Source: a virus
DNA: 24,586 nt
Strand: one strand, 5' to 3'
Virus record (IMG/VR): IMGVR_UViG_3300014050_000130
Span: 1 to 24,586 of that record
Shown: positions 7,048 through 24,586 of the stretch, piece by piece
How positions within the stretch are numbered: the stretch's first letter is position 1
Layout of the letters: each line of letters begins with the position of its first letter
The notes under the pieces: model-generated
Database searches by the model: none
What the model was told of the DNA's origin: nothing
What the model saw: only the letters and a program-made list of their open reading frames with translations
Translations under genes and position numbers: made by a program

Positions 7048-7481
7048 TTCATACTCCTTGGTTTAATCGGTCCTAGACTTAGTAATCCTATATCCACCAT
7101 CTGTGAAATTGCTCCAGTGACAGCAGCCATTGTTAATTGGTGTGTCCGTGCAAAATAAAACTCCCAATACTCTTCTGGGGCTTCTTTTGCTTCATCTCCC
7201 ATTTTTGTTCGATGTAATTCTGTTGTTGCTTTGGCAATCTGATATGTCTGAGCCACAATCAATGGCATCAAGTAAGCAATCTTGGCAACACGAGCATCGC
7301 TGTCTTGTTGCTCTTTTTCTGCAATCTCATCGCTAACGTATGAGGCTCCAGCAATCACACTTAGAGCAAATGCGTCATCAAGTTGAGAGTCTAAAAACAT
7401 CGACCTAATTCGATACATAATTTCTGCCATAAGTCGGTCTTCGTCCAACTCCAATGGCTTCTTTTTCTTGAACCACTTCAC
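7044..7481 (-). CDS. Hypothetical helical protein after polA
   Basis: About 145 residues starting at a GTG that overlaps the polA stop as GTGA, with a GGGGAG site 7 bases upstream. A longer version from ATG 7496 has no ribosome site. The N-terminus is basic (KWFKKKKP), followed by helices with moderately hydrophobic stretches (FALSVIAGASYV, IAYLMPLIVAQTYQIA, MAAVTGAISQMVDIGLL). These are probably buried helices of a soluble all-alpha protein, though membrane association cannot be excluded. No family recognised. Confidence 0.7.
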   Translation of the reverse strand: MKWFKKKKPLELDEDRLMAEIMYRIRSMFLDSQLDDAFALSVIAGASYVSDEIAEKEQQDSDARVAKIAYLMPLIVAQTYQIAKATTELHRTKMGDEAKEAPEEYWEFYFARTHQLTMAAVTGAISQMVDIGLLSLGPIKPRSMK

Positions 7482-9490
7482 TTTGCTTCTCCCCATTTCT
7501 GGACTATGTGTGTATCAGCAATAAGTGGAACAAGCATGTCGGGGAGTTTTACTCCCTCCATCGATTCTTTAATTGCTGCTGCTGTTTCTTCGGCTAGATG
7601 GTCTGGTGCAATTGTCACCAATTCGTCGTGTACAGTCAATAGGACATTCACAGTTGGCTCATTAATAAAGCAAGAATGTGCTCTAACCATGGCTAATTTG
7701 ATTAAGTCTGCAGCAGAACCCTGAATCACCGTGTTGAAGGCTTGGCGTTCTGCTCTGGACTTAGGTCCTAAATCGCTGCTAAGAATTTCTGGGATATAGC
7801 GTCGTCGTCCCAAAACTGTTGTTACATACGGCAATGGACGTTGCTGTCTTGCAATACGGATAACCCGATTTCTATAGTTATTGATAGAGGCAAACCTGTC
7901 GTTAAACAAGTCCATCAACTGATGTGCTTCTTTGACTGTGCAACCAATTTGGTCTGCAATTTTTTCAGGACCAACACCATAAGCAATTGCAAGCACCAAA
8001 ACCTTACCTGCACGACGGTCAACACCCATACGACTACCAATAGTGGTGTAGATGTCACCGCCATCAAGATAGTTCTTTACGAACGCAGGGTCTTTTGAGA
8101 ACGAAGCAATAATGCGTGGTTCAATTTGTGAGTAGTCAGCCACAATTAGTTTGTGTCCTGGTGGTGCAATAAAGAGGTTACGAATTAACTTTCCATATTC
8201 TCCTTGTGATGGAATGTTCTGCAGGTTTGGTTCACTACTAGAAAAACGCCCTGTTTCTGCACCATACGACTTAAAGTTTGTATGGACTTTTCCATTTACT
8301 AAAAGACTTTGACGTGAGACTGTGCGTGATTTACCTGCGGTTGTTCGAGTTACATCGCCACCTGAATACGGCGTTACATAGGTAGTCATCAGTTTGTTTA
8401 GGTCTTGATACCGCATAATTGCACCCACCAATGGGTCTTTTTCACGGTAGTACTCCAAGGCTTCAGAACTTACAGAATAATGATTAATCTGAACCTCTGC
8501 TCCGCTTCTCATTGCTTCTAGTCCTTTTGGAGTAAGAGCAATTTTAATTGTCTTGTTTGGGCGAATTCCTCGACCACCTTCAGACTTTGGAGTAAAAAGA
8601 ATTTTCTGTTTTTCTGGGATGGAGTTCATGTGGAACTCACGTCCAGCAATCTTGTACGCCTCTGCAGTTACGGCTACAAGGTCTTTTTCAATCTTCTTTT
8701 TGAGGCTATCAAGTTCTTCTGTGTCAATGAACGCTCCTGTTAATTCCATGTCTGCAAGAACTAAAAGAAGGTCCATCTCTAAACGCCATACCGTCATCAA
8801 CCCACGTTCTTTTAAACGAACGCTGTAAATCTTGTACAACTCCCAAGTGCTTTCAGCATCAATACCTGCATACTTTGCTACATCGCTAAACGCATGCTTT
8901 TCAACAGCATGTCCAATACCTTTAACAACTATCTTGTTAAGTTCTCGCTTTGAACAGTCGTCCAAACCTAATCCGTTTTTAGTTCTGTTATCTAAAATAA
9001 AAGACGCAATCATTGTGTCAAAGTACGGCTTTGGACAAACTACTCCTCTGTAGTACTTGGCAATTGCTTTGAGGTCGAACTTGATGTTGTGTCCGACTTT
9101 GATTTTGTCACTAAACAATAAAGGCTTGAGTGCTTTAAACACATCCCCTGGGAGGAGTTGGTCGGGAGCAGTATCGAAAACTGGTGTCCAACTATCCTCC
9201 CTTCTAGAATAATCTTGTTCACGTAATTCTTTTCCCTCTGCTAAACGCTTTTGTCCTGATGCTAATAATGGTTTTTCCCAATGCAAAAATTCGCCGTTTG
9301 GATGTCCCATTGGGATAACGTCCACACGTCCTTCGGTTGCAAAAGCAATCCATGTAACTTTATTTAAGACAGGGTGTACTCGTGCAAAGTCATCATCGCC
9401 TGTTGTTTCTACGTCAAAGGCGAATGCTGGTTGTGCCATGTATGCACTAACCATTTCATCTAAATCTTTTTGGTTTGTAATTATGTTCAT
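7478..9490 (-). CDS. polA: Family A DNA polymerase with 3'-5' exonuclease
   Basis: The 670-residue protein has both domains of a replicative phage Pol A. Exonuclease: FAFDVETTG (D26, E28), VGHNIKFDLKA (D139) and YAGID (Y207, D211). Polymerase: motif A ADYSQIEPR (D452), motif B RRAGKVLVLAIAYG (K496, Y504), and motif C TVHDELV (H621, D622). The 5'-3' exonuclease domain of bacterial Pol I is absent. At the site equivalent to E. coli Phe762 there is a leucine. I start it at ATG 9490, with an AGGAG site 4 bases upstream, rather than an upstream in-frame codon at 9547 that would begin inside a hairpin. It is the likely replicative polymerase, next to SSB. Confidence 0.96.
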   Translation of the reverse strand: MNIITNQKDLDEMVSAYMAQPAFAFDVETTGDDDFARVHPVLNKVTWIAFATEGRVDVIPMGHPNGEFLHWEKPLLASGQKRLAEGKELREQDYSRREDSWTPVFDTAPDQLLPGDVFKALKPLLFSDKIKVGHNIKFDLKAIAKYYRGVVCPKPYFDTMIASFILDNRTKNGLGLDDCSKRELNKIVVKGIGHAVEKHAFSDVAKYAGIDAESTWELYKIYSVRLKERGLMTVWRLEMDLLLVLADMELTGAFIDTEELDSLKKKIEKDLVAVTAEAYKIAGREFHMNSIPEKQKILFTPKSEGGRGIRPNKTIKIALTPKGLEAMRSGAEVQINHYSVSSEALEYYREKDPLVGAIMRYQDLNKLMTTYVTPYSGGDVTRTTAGKSRTVSRQSLLVNGKVHTNFKSYGAETGRFSSSEPNLQNIPSQGEYGKLIRNLFIAPPGHKLIVADYSQIEPRIIASFSKDPAFVKNYLDGGDIYTTIGSRMGVDRRAGKVLVLAIAYGVGPEKIADQIGCTVKEAHQLMDLFNDRFASINNYRNRVIRIARQQRPLPYVTTVLGRRRYIPEILSSDLGPKSRAERQAFNTVIQGSAADLIKLAMVRAHSCFINEPTVNVLLTVHDELVTIAPDHLAEETAAAIKESMEGVKLPDMLVPLIADTHIVQKWGEAK

Positions 9491-9511
9491 TATGCTCCTA
9501 AGAAGAAAGCA

Positions 9512-9544
9512 GGGGGCTGGGAAATAGAGGTAAAACCAGCCCCC
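9512..9544 (-). terminator. GC-rich hairpin between SSB and polA
   Basis: A perfect 9-bp inverted repeat, GGGGGCTGG (9512-9520) and CCAGCCCCC (9536-9544), encloses a 15-base loop. Read on the minus strand it is followed by TGCTTTCTTCTT, a pyrimidine-rich tract that is not a clean U-run. It lies downstream of the abundant SSB gene and ends about 20 bases before the polA start. It may end part of the SSB transcripts, giving more SSB than polymerase, or act as a 5' leader structure for polA. Confidence 0.6.
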
Positions 9545-9575
9545 CACTTGTTATGGGACGAGTTACTTTGACGGA

Positions 9576-19173: not shown

Positions 19174-21399
19174 TCAAGCACTCTGGTCTTTAGAGTATGA
19201 GTCGCCTTCAAAGCCCTTGTACGTACGAATACGGTATGGCTGATTGAGTGGTAGCCAGTCTTCTAGAGTCCACAATAGGCGAGGAATCTTGACAGTACGG
19301 CTTGTATAGGCGTAGGAGTAGGAAGCGTGGGCTGTTCCTGACCAAAATACACCTGCTGCTTCAGGAAGTGAGCCGTCAAAGTAGTCAGACGGTTTAAAGG
19401 TTTTCTCAAACTGAACGTTGTCAATCCAAATATCTTGACCAGTTAAAGTTGCAGCAAAACTTGCTGCCATTGTGATATTGCCCTGTGTTGAAAGTCCTTC
19501 AGGAACGTATAAGGACACGTAATACCGTTTCCATGCGGTTGTTAACGCCCATGTTGTTGATGCTGTATCTGAATCTGGACCGTTATCGTCTGACGCAGAA
19601 AGTGTGACTGTAATGTTTCTAGCAGAAGAACACTTCATGTACGCAGAAAAAGTGTAGGTATTTCCCTCAATAATTTTGTAGGTGGTTGGTGTTTTATTAA
19701 GTGTTACAGACACAGCAAAACTGTTTTGTCCGCTTAATTTCATAGAGTAAGTTCCAGGAAGTCCTGGAGGAACATCTGTTACTCGTGTTTTTGTTGAGTT
19801 TGTTGTCCAGTTATTTGTGTTTGTTTCAAATGATGGGTTTGCAATGATGTTTACTTTTTGAGGTTCTAGGAATATGTCTAAACCACGTGCTTCATCAAAG
19901 TTTGTTGCCGTTGCTTGTGGTGCAAACTGAACCATGTCAAGGTTGTAGGAGTTTTGAGTTCTAAAGGTAAATCTAAGAGTTGCATAAACTGCTGTGGATG
20001 GAGAGGTAGCGTTTAACTGAAACCTTTGATAAACACCTGTGGTTCCATTAGGGCTTGCTTCTTGAACATAACTACCAATCTTTACTCCCAGATAATCATG
20101 CCAAGTAATATCCGCAATCATGCTTCCATTGGAGTCCGAAGCAATGTAGTAACTGAGTCTGTATGCAGTGCTTGCTTTTACTGGGATTCCGTTTTTAACT
20201 ACATTGTCTTTTCCTAAAATAAGGTTAGAACAATTTGTAACAGTTCCTGTAGTTGTTGTTGTATTTACATTACTTCCTGAGTTTGCATAAGTAAACGACG
20301 TTGCACTTGGCACAGATGCAACAGAAGCACTTCCATTAAAATCTGCTACAGACACGCTTCCAACCACAACAGTATCTCCTACTGAAAGTCCGTGAGCCTG
20401 TGCCATGACAATAGTTGCAACGTTATTATTACGAGCAACCGATGAAATTTGAGCAACTGCAGTTACAAAACGACCAGACCAAACAGTATCTACTGCGTTT
20501 GTTCCTGTAGGTCCAGGTTTATTGCTAACGGCTGTAAGGGTTCCGTTTGTTTTTGTCCAACGTCCAATTCCTTTTGTAAAGGACGAATCTTGCGTATCTA
20601 ACATAAGGTTTGGGGAGATAGTAAGCGTTGGGTTGTAGTTTGTTACAGCCTCAATGTAGTTTTGAACTCCAAGCAATGTCCCTTTTCTTTGGTACATGTA
20701 TAAGGCTTCACGAATTAATTTCTTTTGATTTCTATATGGCAAACCAAGTTCAGGGTAAAGCCCAAGATGATTTGCCCACAGTGGAACTAAAAATGGAGGT
20801 GTCTTACGCTTTCCGTAAGAAGGCATAAGTAATTCTGCATAGGTTAAAATTTGGTCGTACGTAAATGTAAACCCCGATAAAAATGTGGCAAGGAAACTAT
20901 TTGGGTCAGGAATACCTGTTGGGCTTTTTTCTGGGCTTGTAAATACACGAGGTAAAAGGCGCAAAGTATTTTCTTGGCTACCACGATTTTTCGGCATAAC
21001 AGCAGTTGCATACCCTGCTGGAAGCCACACGTTATTGCTTGTAAATAAGAAAATAGTGTAATAAATAAATTGACCAGGTGTTACTGGTAAGTCGTTATCA
21101 GTATTATCATCTAAAAAATTGTCTTCACCATCAACAAAATAATTGCGTTCGACTAAACCTGAGAGATTATCAGTAGAGGATTGTTCCCAAATGATTACGC
21201 CATCTTCTTCAGTTTCAGAAAAGTTGTCGTTATTTCGAACAAGGCGAATTTTTGTAAAATTTCCAGATGGCGGATTCCAAATTACTTTGATTTTCCCATA
21301 ATCAATAGCCGATGCTTCCATCGGTTCGGCGTTGAGAACAAGCCGTGGAGCATTGCCGTAGTAGGCTCCACGGTAAATAGCACCCGTATACTTTGCCAT
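19174..21399 (-). CDS. Baseplate tail protein with carbohydrate-binding modules
   Basis: The 741-residue protein is a mosaic. Residues about 20-135 look like a fibronectin-III-type beta domain (KIKVIWNPPSGNFTKIRLVR). Residues 145-255 match the TIGR02242 tail domain: LPRVF, then TPPFLVPLWANHLGL and IREALYMYQRKGTLLGVQNYIE, found in baseplate proteins of contractile tails and related injection systems. A CBM-like jelly roll (262-512) is split by a 75-residue beta module (315-388; AHGLSVGDTVVVGSVSVADF). A second CBM-like domain (513-690) begins NIIANPSFETNTNNW. It probably positions host-glycan binding at the baseplate. The C-terminus is rich in Trp, Tyr and Arg. No enzyme motif seen. Confidence 0.85.
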   Translation of the reverse strand: MAKYTGAIYRGAYYGNAPRLVLNAEPMEASAIDYGKIKVIWNPPSGNFTKIRLVRNNDNFSETEEDGVIIWEQSSTDNLSGLVERNYFVDGEDNFLDDNTDNDLPVTPGQFIYYTIFLFTSNNVWLPAGYATAVMPKNRGSQENTLRLLPRVFTSPEKSPTGIPDPNSFLATFLSGFTFTYDQILTYAELLMPSYGKRKTPPFLVPLWANHLGLYPELGLPYRNQKKLIREALYMYQRKGTLLGVQNYIEAVTNYNPTLTISPNLMLDTQDSSFTKGIGRWTKTNGTLTAVSNKPGPTGTNAVDTVWSGRFVTAVAQISSVARNNNVATIVMAQAHGLSVGDTVVVGSVSVADFNGSASVASVPSATSFTYANSGSNVNTTTTTGTVTNCSNLILGKDNVVKNGIPVKASTAYRLSYYIASDSNGSMIADITWHDYLGVKIGSYVQEASPNGTTGVYQRFQLNATSPSTAVYATLRFTFRTQNSYNLDMVQFAPQATATNFDEARGLDIFLEPQKVNIIANPSFETNTNNWTTNSTKTRVTDVPPGLPGTYSMKLSGQNSFAVSVTLNKTPTTYKIIEGNTYTFSAYMKCSSARNITVTLSASDDNGPDSDTASTTWALTTAWKRYYVSLYVPEGLSTQGNITMAASFAATLTGQDIWIDNVQFEKTFKPSDYFDGSLPEAAGVFWSGTAHASYSYAYTSRTVKIPRLLWTLEDWLPLNQPYRIRTYKGFEGDSYSKDQSA

Positions 21400-21855: not shown

Positions 21856-22065
21856 TTAGTCTCTCTTTTGTAATTTCCCATCAACCCAAAGGTCTCCAAC
21901 ACGAGGGTTTGGACCATGAGTTGCTTCGTCATACTCAACAACAATTGGGTCGCTAGTAAAAACTGCTGCCAGTCTTTCGCTTGTCTTCATTGTCGTTACT
22001 ACTTCTCCATCAAGGATAAAGAGGACGAGTTTTTCGTTGTGTAGTTCTGGGGTGTTTTCAGCCAT
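21856..22065 (-). CDS. Small hypothetical structural protein
   Basis: The 69-residue acidic protein includes KLVLFILDGEVVTTMKTSERLAA and ends in GDLWVDGKL, a motif also found in fibre-type proteins (compare GTIWVDSDS in 23578-24243). An AAGGAG site lies 6 bases before the ATG. It is in the tail-gene run, so a tail accessory role is likely. No family recognised. Confidence 0.65.
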   Translation of the reverse strand: MAENTPELHNEKLVLFILDGEVVTTMKTSERLAAVFTSDPIVVEYDEATHGPNPRVGDLWVDGKLQKRD

Positions 22066-22354
22066 TTGTTTCTCCTTCGTCGGCTCCTACTGTAACAGCA
22101 TGCCACTTACCTATGGGGCATGAAGCATGAGGAAGTTTTGCTTTTTCGGTCATAAAGCACCCGCATTTTCTGCAGGTCTTTGTTATGTTGATTAGGTGCT
22201 CGCACTTCAAGCATCCTTCTTCATAACGAGCCTTAAAGGTCTCGTCATCAACTCTGCCTATCTTTGGGTTTATTAAATCCCAAGGACGTGCAGCATCGCC
22301 TGGGTTTTTCTCTTTCCAAATATCCCAGGGTCTTTTCTTAGGTGTCTCTGTCAT
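22058..22354 (-). CDS. Small Cys-rich zinc protein (DUF6171-like)
   Basis: The 98-residue protein has a cluster C48LKC51, C61RKC64GC66 and C79PIGKW, the pattern of small Cys-rich proteins widespread in T4-like and other environmental phages among tail genes (CGCFM...CPxGKW). The N-terminal half repeats RPWD-type segments (RPWDIW and RPWDLI). Likely binds one or two zinc ions. Its start overlaps the end of the cysteine-rich tail gene (ATGA). Function unknown; the DUF name is from memory of the motif. Confidence 0.75.
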   Translation of the reverse strand: MTETPKKRPWDIWKEKNPGDAARPWDLINPKIGRVDDETFKARYEEGCLKCEHLINITKTCRKCGCFMTEKAKLPHASCPIGKWHAVTVGADEGETNG

Positions 22355-23568
22355 TGTCCGTATGCCTTTACTTGTATTGAGCCGATATTTCTTCCATCTT
22401 CGTAGTTGCTTGGAGCACCTACAAGTCCGTAGTTAGTGCTAACTAGGTTGTTAGTTACTGACACAGACCCGACTTGTTGAGTATACAACGAGTCTTTGTA
22501 TGCTGTTATAGAGATAGTGTCGTTTACACCTGAAATTTTTACCGCATTCCAACGTTCATTTACTTGAGTGTCACTGACTACTGAAACAACGCCGTTTGTC
22601 ATTTGCAAAACACGAATATAAAAGTATTGATTGTATGCAGTTGCAGTTCCTACGTTATCGCAAACAAATCTGCTTCCTGATTGGCAACAATTGTAATAAG
22701 GAACGTTACTAAATCCATCAGGGGAACAGGTCTCGATTGTCTCAGTAAATTCCCCATATTGAGTACATACAAAAGCACCATATTGAATATCGTATCCCGC
22801 ACAACCTACATAAACTGAGTAGGTTTCAGATGTACAGTCTCCAGGAATGGTTCTTGTACAAATGTCTCTATCGCAACAAATGCTTGTTCCAAAACGGTTA
22901 CAGTACTTAATGCAGCAGTTGTAAGTTGTAGTTCTATCTGGTGTACATACTGTTCTAGTTCTAGTTTCATAAATAGGGTCAACACACGTAACTGTGTCGG
23001 GTTCGTAGTAACCGTCTACACAATCTACGTATGTGTTTGTTTCTACTAATAGTGTGTTCGGTGGCTCACAAACGAGATTGTAACCCGCAGGGTCTGGACA
23101 TGCAGCAATGCAATAAGACTCATTATGTCCTGATATGCAATAAGAGTAGGTGTAAGACGTTTGATTGTAATAAGGAATAACTGCTGTCCAGTTGTTTTCA
23201 TCTAGACCACGAAAAACAACACCCATACCAGGAGATAATTCATTGGCCTCTAAATTAAAATCAGAAAACCCTGTATCAATAGTTGCAAGTGGGTAGTCTG
23301 ATTTTGAACCCGTAGTATTAGCATTGTTTGAATTGATACGCCATTGACTTCTTTTTAATTCCCAGGCTTGTCCACTTTCAGCAACACCTAATGTGTTAGT
23401 TGTGTCTTGTCGAGAAAAAGTATCCTTTAATTCTGCAGCCCAAAATTGTTTCCAGTTACCGTTGACTTTTACATAGCCAAATTGGGCACGCTTCCACCCA
23501 CCATTGACTTTTGCAAAAAGCCCAGAACCAGACTTAAAATCACCAGAGACCTTAGAACCAATAGCCAT
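22351..23568 (-). CDS. Tail protein: ConA-like domain split by Cys-rich insert
   Basis: The 405-residue protein starts with two short repeats (FAKVNGGWKRA and YVKVNGNWKQF), common at the base of actinophage fibres. A concanavalin-like domain begins with DTFSRQDTTNTLGVAESGQAWE (residues 49-70) and is cut at about residue 136. It resumes at 312 with YFYIRVLQMTNGVVSVVSD and runs to the end. The insert between has 20 cysteines (144-303), including CC pairs at 218/219, 231/232 and 294/295; the rest of the protein has none. The insert is also rich in Tyr and Thr. Reading frame is kept across both junctions. It should be a surface-exposed tail protein; the insert may be disulphide-bonded or metal-binding. 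Its ATG has an AAGGA site. Confidence 0.88.
   Translation of the reverse strand: MAIGSKVSGDFKSGSGLFAKVNGGWKRAQFGYVKVNGNWKQFWAAELKDTFSRQDTTNTLGVAESGQAWELKRSQWRINSNNANTTGSKSDYPLATIDTGFSDFNLEANELSPGMGVVFRGLDENNWTAVIPYYNQTSYTYSYCISGHNESYCIAACPDPAGYNLVCEPPNTLLVETNTYVDCVDGYYEPDTVTCVDPIYETRTRTVCTPDRTTTYNCCIKYCNRFGTSICCDRDICTRTIPGDCTSETYSVYVGCAGYDIQYGAFVCTQYGEFTETIETCSPDGFSNVPYYNCCQSGSRFVCDNVGTATAYNQYFYIRVLQMTNGVVSVVSDTQVNERWNAVKISGVNDTISITAYKDSLYTQQVGSVSVTNNLVSTNYGLVGAPSNYEDGRNIGSIQVKAYGQ
22627..22635. repeat. 9-bp direct repeat, 3' side of Cys-rich insert
   Basis: TTGATTGTA, encoding Tyr-Asn-Gln at residues 312-314 of the tail protein. An identical copy lies 534 bp (178 codons) away at the other edge of the insert. 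Confidence 0.75.
23161..23169. repeat. 9-bp direct repeat, 5' side of Cys-rich insert
   Basis: TTGATTGTA, encoding Tyr-Asn-Gln at residues 134-136 of the tail protein, in the same frame as the other copy. Joining the two copies would restore a continuous ConA-like domain. Confidence 0.75.
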
Positions 23569-23577
23569 GATTAGTCC

Positions 23578-24243
23578 TTAAGGAATGTACTTAATCCAGA
23601 TGTCTCCGTTATTACCACCAGTTGGGTCTGACGTTGAGACCGTGATGTTACGAAGACGAGAGGTAAGTGCTTGGTCTCCTGTAAGTGTTCCTCCAGTAAT
23701 TTGAATTGTAGTTTCGGCAGAAAGCACAGCAGGGTTTGAATCTGAGTCAACCCAAATTGTGCCTGTTGGTAACCCAAGGGCTGCACCATCTGGGGTTGAT
23801 GATTGCCAAAGGATTGGCTTTAACTCCTGGTTATTAACAATAACTTTTCCAGCATTATCAACTTTAGTTAATATAGTTCCAGAAGAGTTTTTAAACTGAA
23901 GTAGGTCTGCTGTTTGATTAGTAAATCCTTGCAAACGAAGAGGTATTACTGTTGCATTTGATGCTTGTATCGTATCGTTACCCGTATTGTGGGTGTACTG
24001 TGTATGAACGTCGCCTTTAATACCTTGCTCGATATTGGCAATACGAGCCTTAAGAGTTGCAAAAGTAACCGTTGCTTCATCAAAAGTTCCTGCATATCCT
24101 GCAGTTACCTGTGGAAGTGTTCCAATCGTTGCTTGAATAGCGGTAACTTCTTGCTGAAGAGCGTTAACGTGTTCGGCAAGAACTAGGTCGGTAAAGTCTT
24201 CTTTAGTGGTAAAGGACTTAACTCCGTCTGGATAAACAGCCAT
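23578..24243 (-). CDS. Tail fibre-like protein
   Basis: The 221-residue protein opens with the fibre motif YPDGVKSFTTKEDFTDLVLAEHVNALQQEVTAI, a helix with heptad spacing that would trimerise, then a beta-rich shaft (TVIPLRLQGFTNQTADLLQFKNSSGT) and two copies of a short tip motif, LPTGTIWVDSD and TGGNNGDIWIKYIP. This is a common plan for small actinophage fibres. A strong AGGAG site lies 6 bases before the ATG. Receptor binding or fibre assembly is inferred. Confidence 0.8.
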   Translation of the reverse strand: MAVYPDGVKSFTTKEDFTDLVLAEHVNALQQEVTAIQATIGTLPQVTAGYAGTFDEATVTFATLKARIANIEQGIKGDVHTQYTHNTGNDTIQASNATVIPLRLQGFTNQTADLLQFKNSSGTILTKVDNAGKVIVNNQELKPILWQSSTPDGAALGLPTGTIWVDSDSNPAVLSAETTIQITGGTLTGDQALTSRLRNITVSTSDPTGGNNGDIWIKYIP

Positions 24244-24251
24244 TTTTTCTC

Positions 24252-24503
24252 CTAATCTACGGCTTCATTCTCTCTGGTTTTGCGGTTTTTGACTGGCTTA
24301 ACCCTTAGCCATTGATGGTATGGGTATGGCTTGGGCTGGTCCTTGTTGCCAAGGTATTGCGAACCGTGGTCAAGGTAGTCTCCAGAGTCTTGATTTTGTT
24401 TGCCATAGCCAAGATAGTTGCCACTAGGTCCACCTCGGTTGTTCCATTTGATGTGCGTTCTGTAATGATGTGAGTTCCTTCTAACCCTGTTAAAGAAGTT
24501 GTA
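24252..24503 (-). other. Open frame without a normal start, overlapping tail gene
   Basis: An 84-codon stretch is open in the -1 frame relative to the tail protein gene that ends at 24305, and continues 53 bases past that stop to a TAG that overlaps the AGGAG site of the next gene. The product would include HIKWNNRGGPSGNYLGYG and DYLDHGSQYLGNKDQP, which look protein-like. It has no ATG, GTG or TTG. It may be a -1 frameshift extension, a gene with a rare start, or chance. Confidence 0.35.
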
Positions 24504-24586
24504 TCAGGAAGAACTTTGACATTAATTCTTTTACCTTTATCAGGTTTGCCAAAAGTGCCACACCAAACGGGATAACTAACATCGCC
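24305..24586 (-). CDS. Tail/baseplate protein, C-terminal part (partial)
   Basis: The N-terminus lies beyond the right edge; 93 residues are visible. It begins in a beta-rich domain (YPVWCGTFGKPDKGKRINVKV), passes through an amphipathic helix with coiled-coil spacing (LVATILAMANKIKTLETTLTT) and ends in SPSHTHTING, a His-Thr tip that in other phage tail spikes and fibres can hold metal. It is therefore likely a trimeric tail or baseplate component. The following 54 bases before the next gene are covered only by the alternative frame listed separately. Confidence 0.75.
   Translation of the reverse strand, partial: GDVSYPVWCGTFGKPDKGKRINVKVLPDTTSLTGLEGTHIITERTSNGTTEVDLVATILAMANKIKTLETTLTTVRNTLATRTSPSHTHTING

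Follow-up and report, generated by a model that had tools for sequence, protein, structure and literature searches.

The adhesin-like gene and its tail-gene neighbourhood

The window, meaning the whole stretch of 24,586 nucleotides analysed, is a 24.6 kb viral record in which phage replication genes are present. An open reading frame encoding 405 residues opens with an ATG that has AAGGA ahead of it, the start of the following gene overlapping its stop. The features of this region are as follows.

24305..24586 (-), partial homologue of a baseplate spike protein with a Phage_base_V OB domain, two genes upstream (homologue L011:2787-3260 matches PF04717, 8e-13)
23578..24243 (-), conserved 221-aa tail-fibre-type protein, immediately upstream (weak PHROG tail fibre match; 68-74% identical in relatives)
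22351..23568 (-), tail adhesin-like protein of 405 aa with a Cys-rich β insert (ORF; conserved in 19 other complete loci)
23434..23568 (-), its N-terminal short-repeat module (AKVNGGWK...VKVNGNWK), residues 1-45 (phrog_25859/36019 matches)
23158..23433 (-), N-terminal half of its ConA-like domain, residues 46-137 (pLDDT about 90; PDB matches)
22657..23157 (-), Cys-rich all-β insert, residues 138-304, 20 Cys, an extension of a ConA hairpin (relatives, models)
22354..22656 (-), C-terminal half of the ConA-like domain, residues 305-405 (pLDDT about 90; PDB matches)
23161..23169 (-), left copy of a 9-bp repeat, judged coincidental; its YNQ residues are conserved in the protein family
22627..22635 (-), right copy of the same repeat, likewise judged coincidental
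22058..22354 (-), 98-aa, 6-Cys, DUF6171/zinc-ribbon-like protein overlapping the adhesin stop, a conserved neighbour
19174..21399 (-), 741-aa minor tail protein with a CBM_4_9 carbohydrate-binding domain (Pfam 6e-12), resembling the minor tail protein of Streptomyces phage GiJojo and relatives

The syntenic order runs from the OB-fold spike through the 221-aa tail protein, the adhesin, the DUF6171-like protein and products of about 70 and 147 aa to the 741-aa CBM_4_9 protein. With Phage_base_V upstream, CBM_4_9 downstream and the order conserved, the adhesin gene lies within a baseplate/tail-fibre cluster. Neighbouring tail proteins in the window, which leaves the sheath, tube and wedge genes outside, contain 0-2 Cys each. 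In one relative (L010:2210-3055) the OB-fold spike protein has 282 aa, against about 150-165 aa in the others with a visible start, so its C-terminal part varies.

In record L103, which holds the most divergent member of the adhesin family (L097), only two small downstream genes are recognisable, and the adhesin therefore occurs in another phage background too. The genes in common with L103 are the zinc-ribbon-like one at 22058-22354 (-) and the approximately 70-aa one at 21856-22065 (-). The zinc-ribbon family is also found in cyanophages and Stenotrophomonas phages, where no adhesin relative was found, and for this reason any link between the zinc-ribbon-like neighbour and Cys-rich folding is no more than a guess.

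Streptomyces phages GiJojo, LuckySocke, Alone3 and BRock have the closest counterparts of the DNA polymerase and the 741-aa protein, which hints at a possible actinobacterial host. DNA polymerase I, at 7478-9547 (-), is itself closest to Alone3, LuckySocke and GiJojo, at 35% identity. Scans of bacterial and archaeal genomes gave no confirmed relative of the adhesin, and thus no host or prophage link.

The adhesin is present in a single copy per record. A Pfam search with its ORF returned no match, a PDB sequence search only chance-level matches to the F17-G lectin, and tblastn against cultured-phage records no match to the whole protein. PHROG matches are confined to the first 50 or so residues. 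This N-terminal module is of low confidence in the AlphaFold2 model, is absent from L097, and is the only part in common between relative L096 and gene EVB81_007 of Rhizobium phage RHph_I46. Residues 1-45 probably represent an attachment module common to unrelated phage tail proteins. The stretch (KVNGGWK...VKVNGNWK) appears mobile, since a similar one starts an unrelated glycine-rich protein in RHph_I46.

Site, age and origin of the insert

A preliminary description of the locus placed all cysteines of the protein in one in-frame insert within a ConA-like domain, and translation bears this out, with 20 of 20 Cys falling in residues 144-303. The site of the insert, given there as 22627-23169, is confirmed; its exact edges are not, as the relatives place the variable Cys-rich part at about residues 138-304 (22657-23157), which is slightly narrower.

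AlphaFold2 models were made of the window protein (mean pLDDT 78.5) and of relative L005 (84.5), the two proteins being 57% identical. Both contain a confidently predicted ConA-like sandwich on either side of the insert, as the preliminary description had supposed, and the insert itself is modelled as all-β. Strand elements of about 41 residues (126-166) and about 38 residues (287-324 / 286-323) continue out of the neighbouring ConA strands, and several further β-hairpins lie between these two long strands in both models. With only moderate confidence in its central part (pLDDT 54-75) and a pTM of 0.54-0.56, the insert has an uncertain overall shape, which could be a straight ribbon or a folded-back sheet. 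In a Foldseek comparison of the whole model with the PDB only weak rows appeared, a good part of which were long-β pore-forming toxins (TM below 0.15); these were judged to be chance similarities of long β hairpins and give no sign of a pore.

By VIA-align the top match is CBM66 of Bacillus subtilis (4azz), at Z 17.4 and rmsd 2.4, with 154/165 residues aligned within model residues 50-405; the mycobacteriophage Douge central fibre ranks next (Z 16.9). The model thus has the two-sheet jelly roll, of about 160-170 residues, of solved ConA-like/CBM66 members. A continuous 165-residue domain aligns around the insert, and the ConA-like fold of the full-length prediction therefore does not need the Cys-rich part. 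Consistent with this, the protein WWT39762 of Microcystis phage Mwe-JY05, whose C-terminal domain is homologous (3.9e-11 for the half before the insert, in a four-sequence test), has NYFFYVSETTGSAVRFYVRN at the insert site, forming a short hairpin only. Together the two comparisons uphold the earlier proposals that the domain is complete and normally uninterrupted without the insert, and that the insertion occupies an exposed hairpin.

IMG/VR was scanned with profiles of the whole protein, the C-terminal flank, the N-terminal flank and the left edge, and 19 further distinct complete proteins and several fragments were recovered. The complete relatives are 25-84% identical to the reference member L005. 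The Cys-rich insert stands at the same place in every relative long enough to tell, including 20/20 distinct complete members. Flank-only scans, which are unbiased towards the insert, found no family member without it, and a search with the insert alone returned only known family members. An uninterrupted copy, sought as the preliminary description had proposed, was found in none of the 19 complete relatives; the uninterrupted homologue is that of Mwe-JY05. Because every sufficiently long relative carries the insert and flank-only scans find none without it, the insert, universal in the complete members found, is ancestral to the family.

This bears on the proposed origin of the insert. As described earlier, TTGATTGTA occurs in frame at 22627 and again at 23161, a distance of 534 bp (178 codons); that strand of the window has no further copy. 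The two copies were read as the boundary left when the insert entered this phage's gene by recombination between them. Their presence at both edges, in frame, is what speaks for such an event. Repeats of this length are, however, predicted by chance: in codon shuffles of the adhesin ORF, 80% hold at least one in-frame 9-bp repeat with copies at least 300 bp apart. A longer in-frame repeat, the 14-bp TTCCTTATTACAAT encoding PYYN, lies in the same ORF at 23164-23177 and 22690-22703. Moreover, all 19 other complete relatives have the insert, down to about 25% identity, and none has a 9-bp repeat at both insert edges, the longest edge match being 4-8 nt. The left YNQ is part of PYYNQT, a motif conserved in the protein family; there is no such conservation on the right, where some relatives have YNQ and others YTN, FEQ or YND. 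Given the shuffles, the longer pair and the relatives without it, the 9-bp repeat is no scar. Arrival by this route is refuted for this lineage by the insert-bearing relatives and can be given almost no credence; a recent arrival in this phage by any route is not supported either.

Cysteine numbers, probable pairing and rate of change

The number of cysteines is even in 20/20 distinct complete proteins (16, 18, 20, 22, 24, 26, 28 or 32), and the Cys of each of the 20 members are confined to one continuous stretch of the insert. For two members the count begins at the ATG and omits a Cys that precedes it. Every other residue type is even in only 6-12 of the 20 proteins. There are 12 distinct Cys patterns, for which the probability of all being even by chance is approximately 2^-12 = 2.4e-4, a rough figure that treats each pattern as one draw while the patterns share ancestry. 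The pairs C144/C153 and C294/C303 have matching 9-residue spacings in most members, and the first two and last two stem Cys may thus be held in a fixed antiparallel register, C144 with C303 and C153 with C294. C157 is missing in L010, L036, L039 and L096, and C295 is missing in all four; these two may form a further cross-strand pair.

The preliminary description allowed for stabilisation by either disulphides or metal. A zinc- or other metal-stabilised module, with Cys that stay reduced, would suit the reducing cytoplasm in which the protein is made, and the product of the next gene is zinc-ribbon-like. The insert, however, has hardly any of the CxxC or CxxC...CxxC and His knuckles of a zinc ribbon or zinc finger (CxxC 0-2 and His 0-2 per protein across the 20 members), its model is all-β without knuckles, and totals of 18, 22 and 26 Cys do not divide into sets of four. 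That the count stays even throughout the 12 patterns suits pairwise bonding. The metal half of the earlier claim is accordingly improbable. Even Cys counts and the near absence of CxxC and His favour intramolecular disulphides over zinc. Against the disulphide reading, disulphides are unusual in proteins made in the cytoplasm. Glutaredoxin, a sign of phage thiol chemistry, was not found in the records of 7 relatives, which may be fragments. The earlier remark that such a module is rare for phages holds only in part: every complete member of this family has the insert, and phage Milano is a known case of whole tails cross-linked by disulphides (PMC10811340).

Identity to the window protein is 28-46% in the insert and 59-73% in the N-terminal ConA half. 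In ten close pairs dN is 0.14-0.41 in the insert vs 0.04-0.17 in the flanks, 1.5-5 times as high; dN/dS of the insert is below 1. In the close pairs dS of the insert (22657-23157, -) is also above that of the flanks, a hint that lineages have exchanged the insert by recombination. For this reason its faster change may be due partly to recombination rather than selection. Judged from these substitution patterns, the insert is the variable part of the protein, under overall purifying selection and perhaps with recombinational exchange.

Possible role and comparison with known systems

Overall, the insert is real and conserved, the repeat-based account of its origin is wrong, and the functional reading is plausible. 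A ConA/CBM-like domain in a baseplate cluster, near a second carbohydrate-binding domain, would most simply be an adhesin. The receptor-binding role proposed earlier for the tip suits this gene cluster, and the preferred reading is a lectin-like tail-tip adhesin whose variable β finger, stapled by disulphides, would make contact with the host. The Cys-rich extension is probably held by disulphides and would help the virus grip its host. Since the finger itself is variable, it most likely contacts something variable, the host surface.

A probable arrangement can be outlined. A short N-terminal attachment module would be followed by a single β-sandwich of ConA/CBM66 type, in which the two strands of one β-hairpin would run outwards without turning, as long antiparallel strands joined via several more β-hairpins. 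Intramolecular disulphides, about 8-16 in number and 10 in the window protein, would staple this finger, forming once the protein has folded or has left the cell. It would project from the baseplate, where its variable loops could bring or tune contact with the host surface, the lectin fold either binding sugar or merely displaying the finger.

The main rival of host contact is a structural or protective role, in which the insert would serve as a stabiliser, a spacer or an inter-subunit contact (e.g. in fibre trimerisation) and touch no receptor. The conserved insert edges, several conserved Cys and a dN/dS below 1 fit such a device, and whole phage tails are stabilised by disulphides in Milano (PMC10811340). 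Unlike an assembly interface, however, the central part of the insert differs widely among members in sequence, length and Cys number, and the neighbouring tail proteins are far more conserved. The structural or protective role is thus considered unlikely, and the host-contact reading is preferred.

The family, which has no Pfam model or cultured-phage match, is a form of the known ConA-type tail adhesins and no separate kind. The finger itself may, tentatively, belong to a separate class of receptor-binding elements in phages, in which a lectin scaffold extends one of its hairpins into a hypervariable β finger stapled by disulphides, with Cys gained and lost only in pairs and a tip that is diversifiable yet rigid. 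If so, a disulphide-rich, fast-changing finger serves for host contact in phages whose tail proteins fold in a reducing cytoplasm, and a natural scaffold-plus-variable-loop system exists outside immunity. An even Cys count at a lectin hairpin would then be a sequence rule for finding adhesins among unannotated phage proteins.

Several known systems resemble parts of this protein. CBM66-type modules (B. subtilis CBM66 4azz; the ConA domains of ReqiPepy6 and actinophage minor tail proteins) have a fold like that of residues ~50-137 plus ~305-405. They differ in having no Cys-rich insert and in sequence (14% identity); sugar binding, a CBM-type trait, may be a property of the present protein too. 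The ReqiPepy6 ConA domain is too distant for sequence alignment. The tip of the Douge central fibre gp20 (8zdp/8zdq) has the same ConA-like phage tail-tip fold, and its C-terminal domain (CFP-tip-CTD) was reported to bind glycans of the mycobacterial host (PMC13033339). It differs in sequence (15% identity), phage type and host, and no disulphides are mentioned in the main text of that report (PMC13033339). Matches over most of the query, likened by predicted structure alone (E 1e-11 to 1e-20, 16-22% identity), are found in BFVD among six proteins of uncultured Caudovirales, A0A6J5KM36, A0A6J5RDN1, A0A6J5REI5, A0A6J7WRS3, A0A6J5MLT4 and A0A6J7WYT9.

A precedent for disulphides in phage tails is Agrobacterium phage Milano, with disulphide-linked tail, baseplate and receptor-binding proteins (PMC10811340). 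The bonds listed for Milano are inter-subunit, with Cys scattered over many tail proteins, whereas here the Cys are packed in one insert. Among open-licence papers, none was found that describes a Cys-rich insert for a ConA/LamG tail protein of a phage. In principle the finger can be likened to the ultralong CDR loops of antibodies. The bovine ultralong CDR-H3 is a long two-stranded β stalk on a β-sandwich with a disulphide-rich variable tip; it belongs to an unrelated host protein of different fold and origin, and the likeness is one of analogy only.
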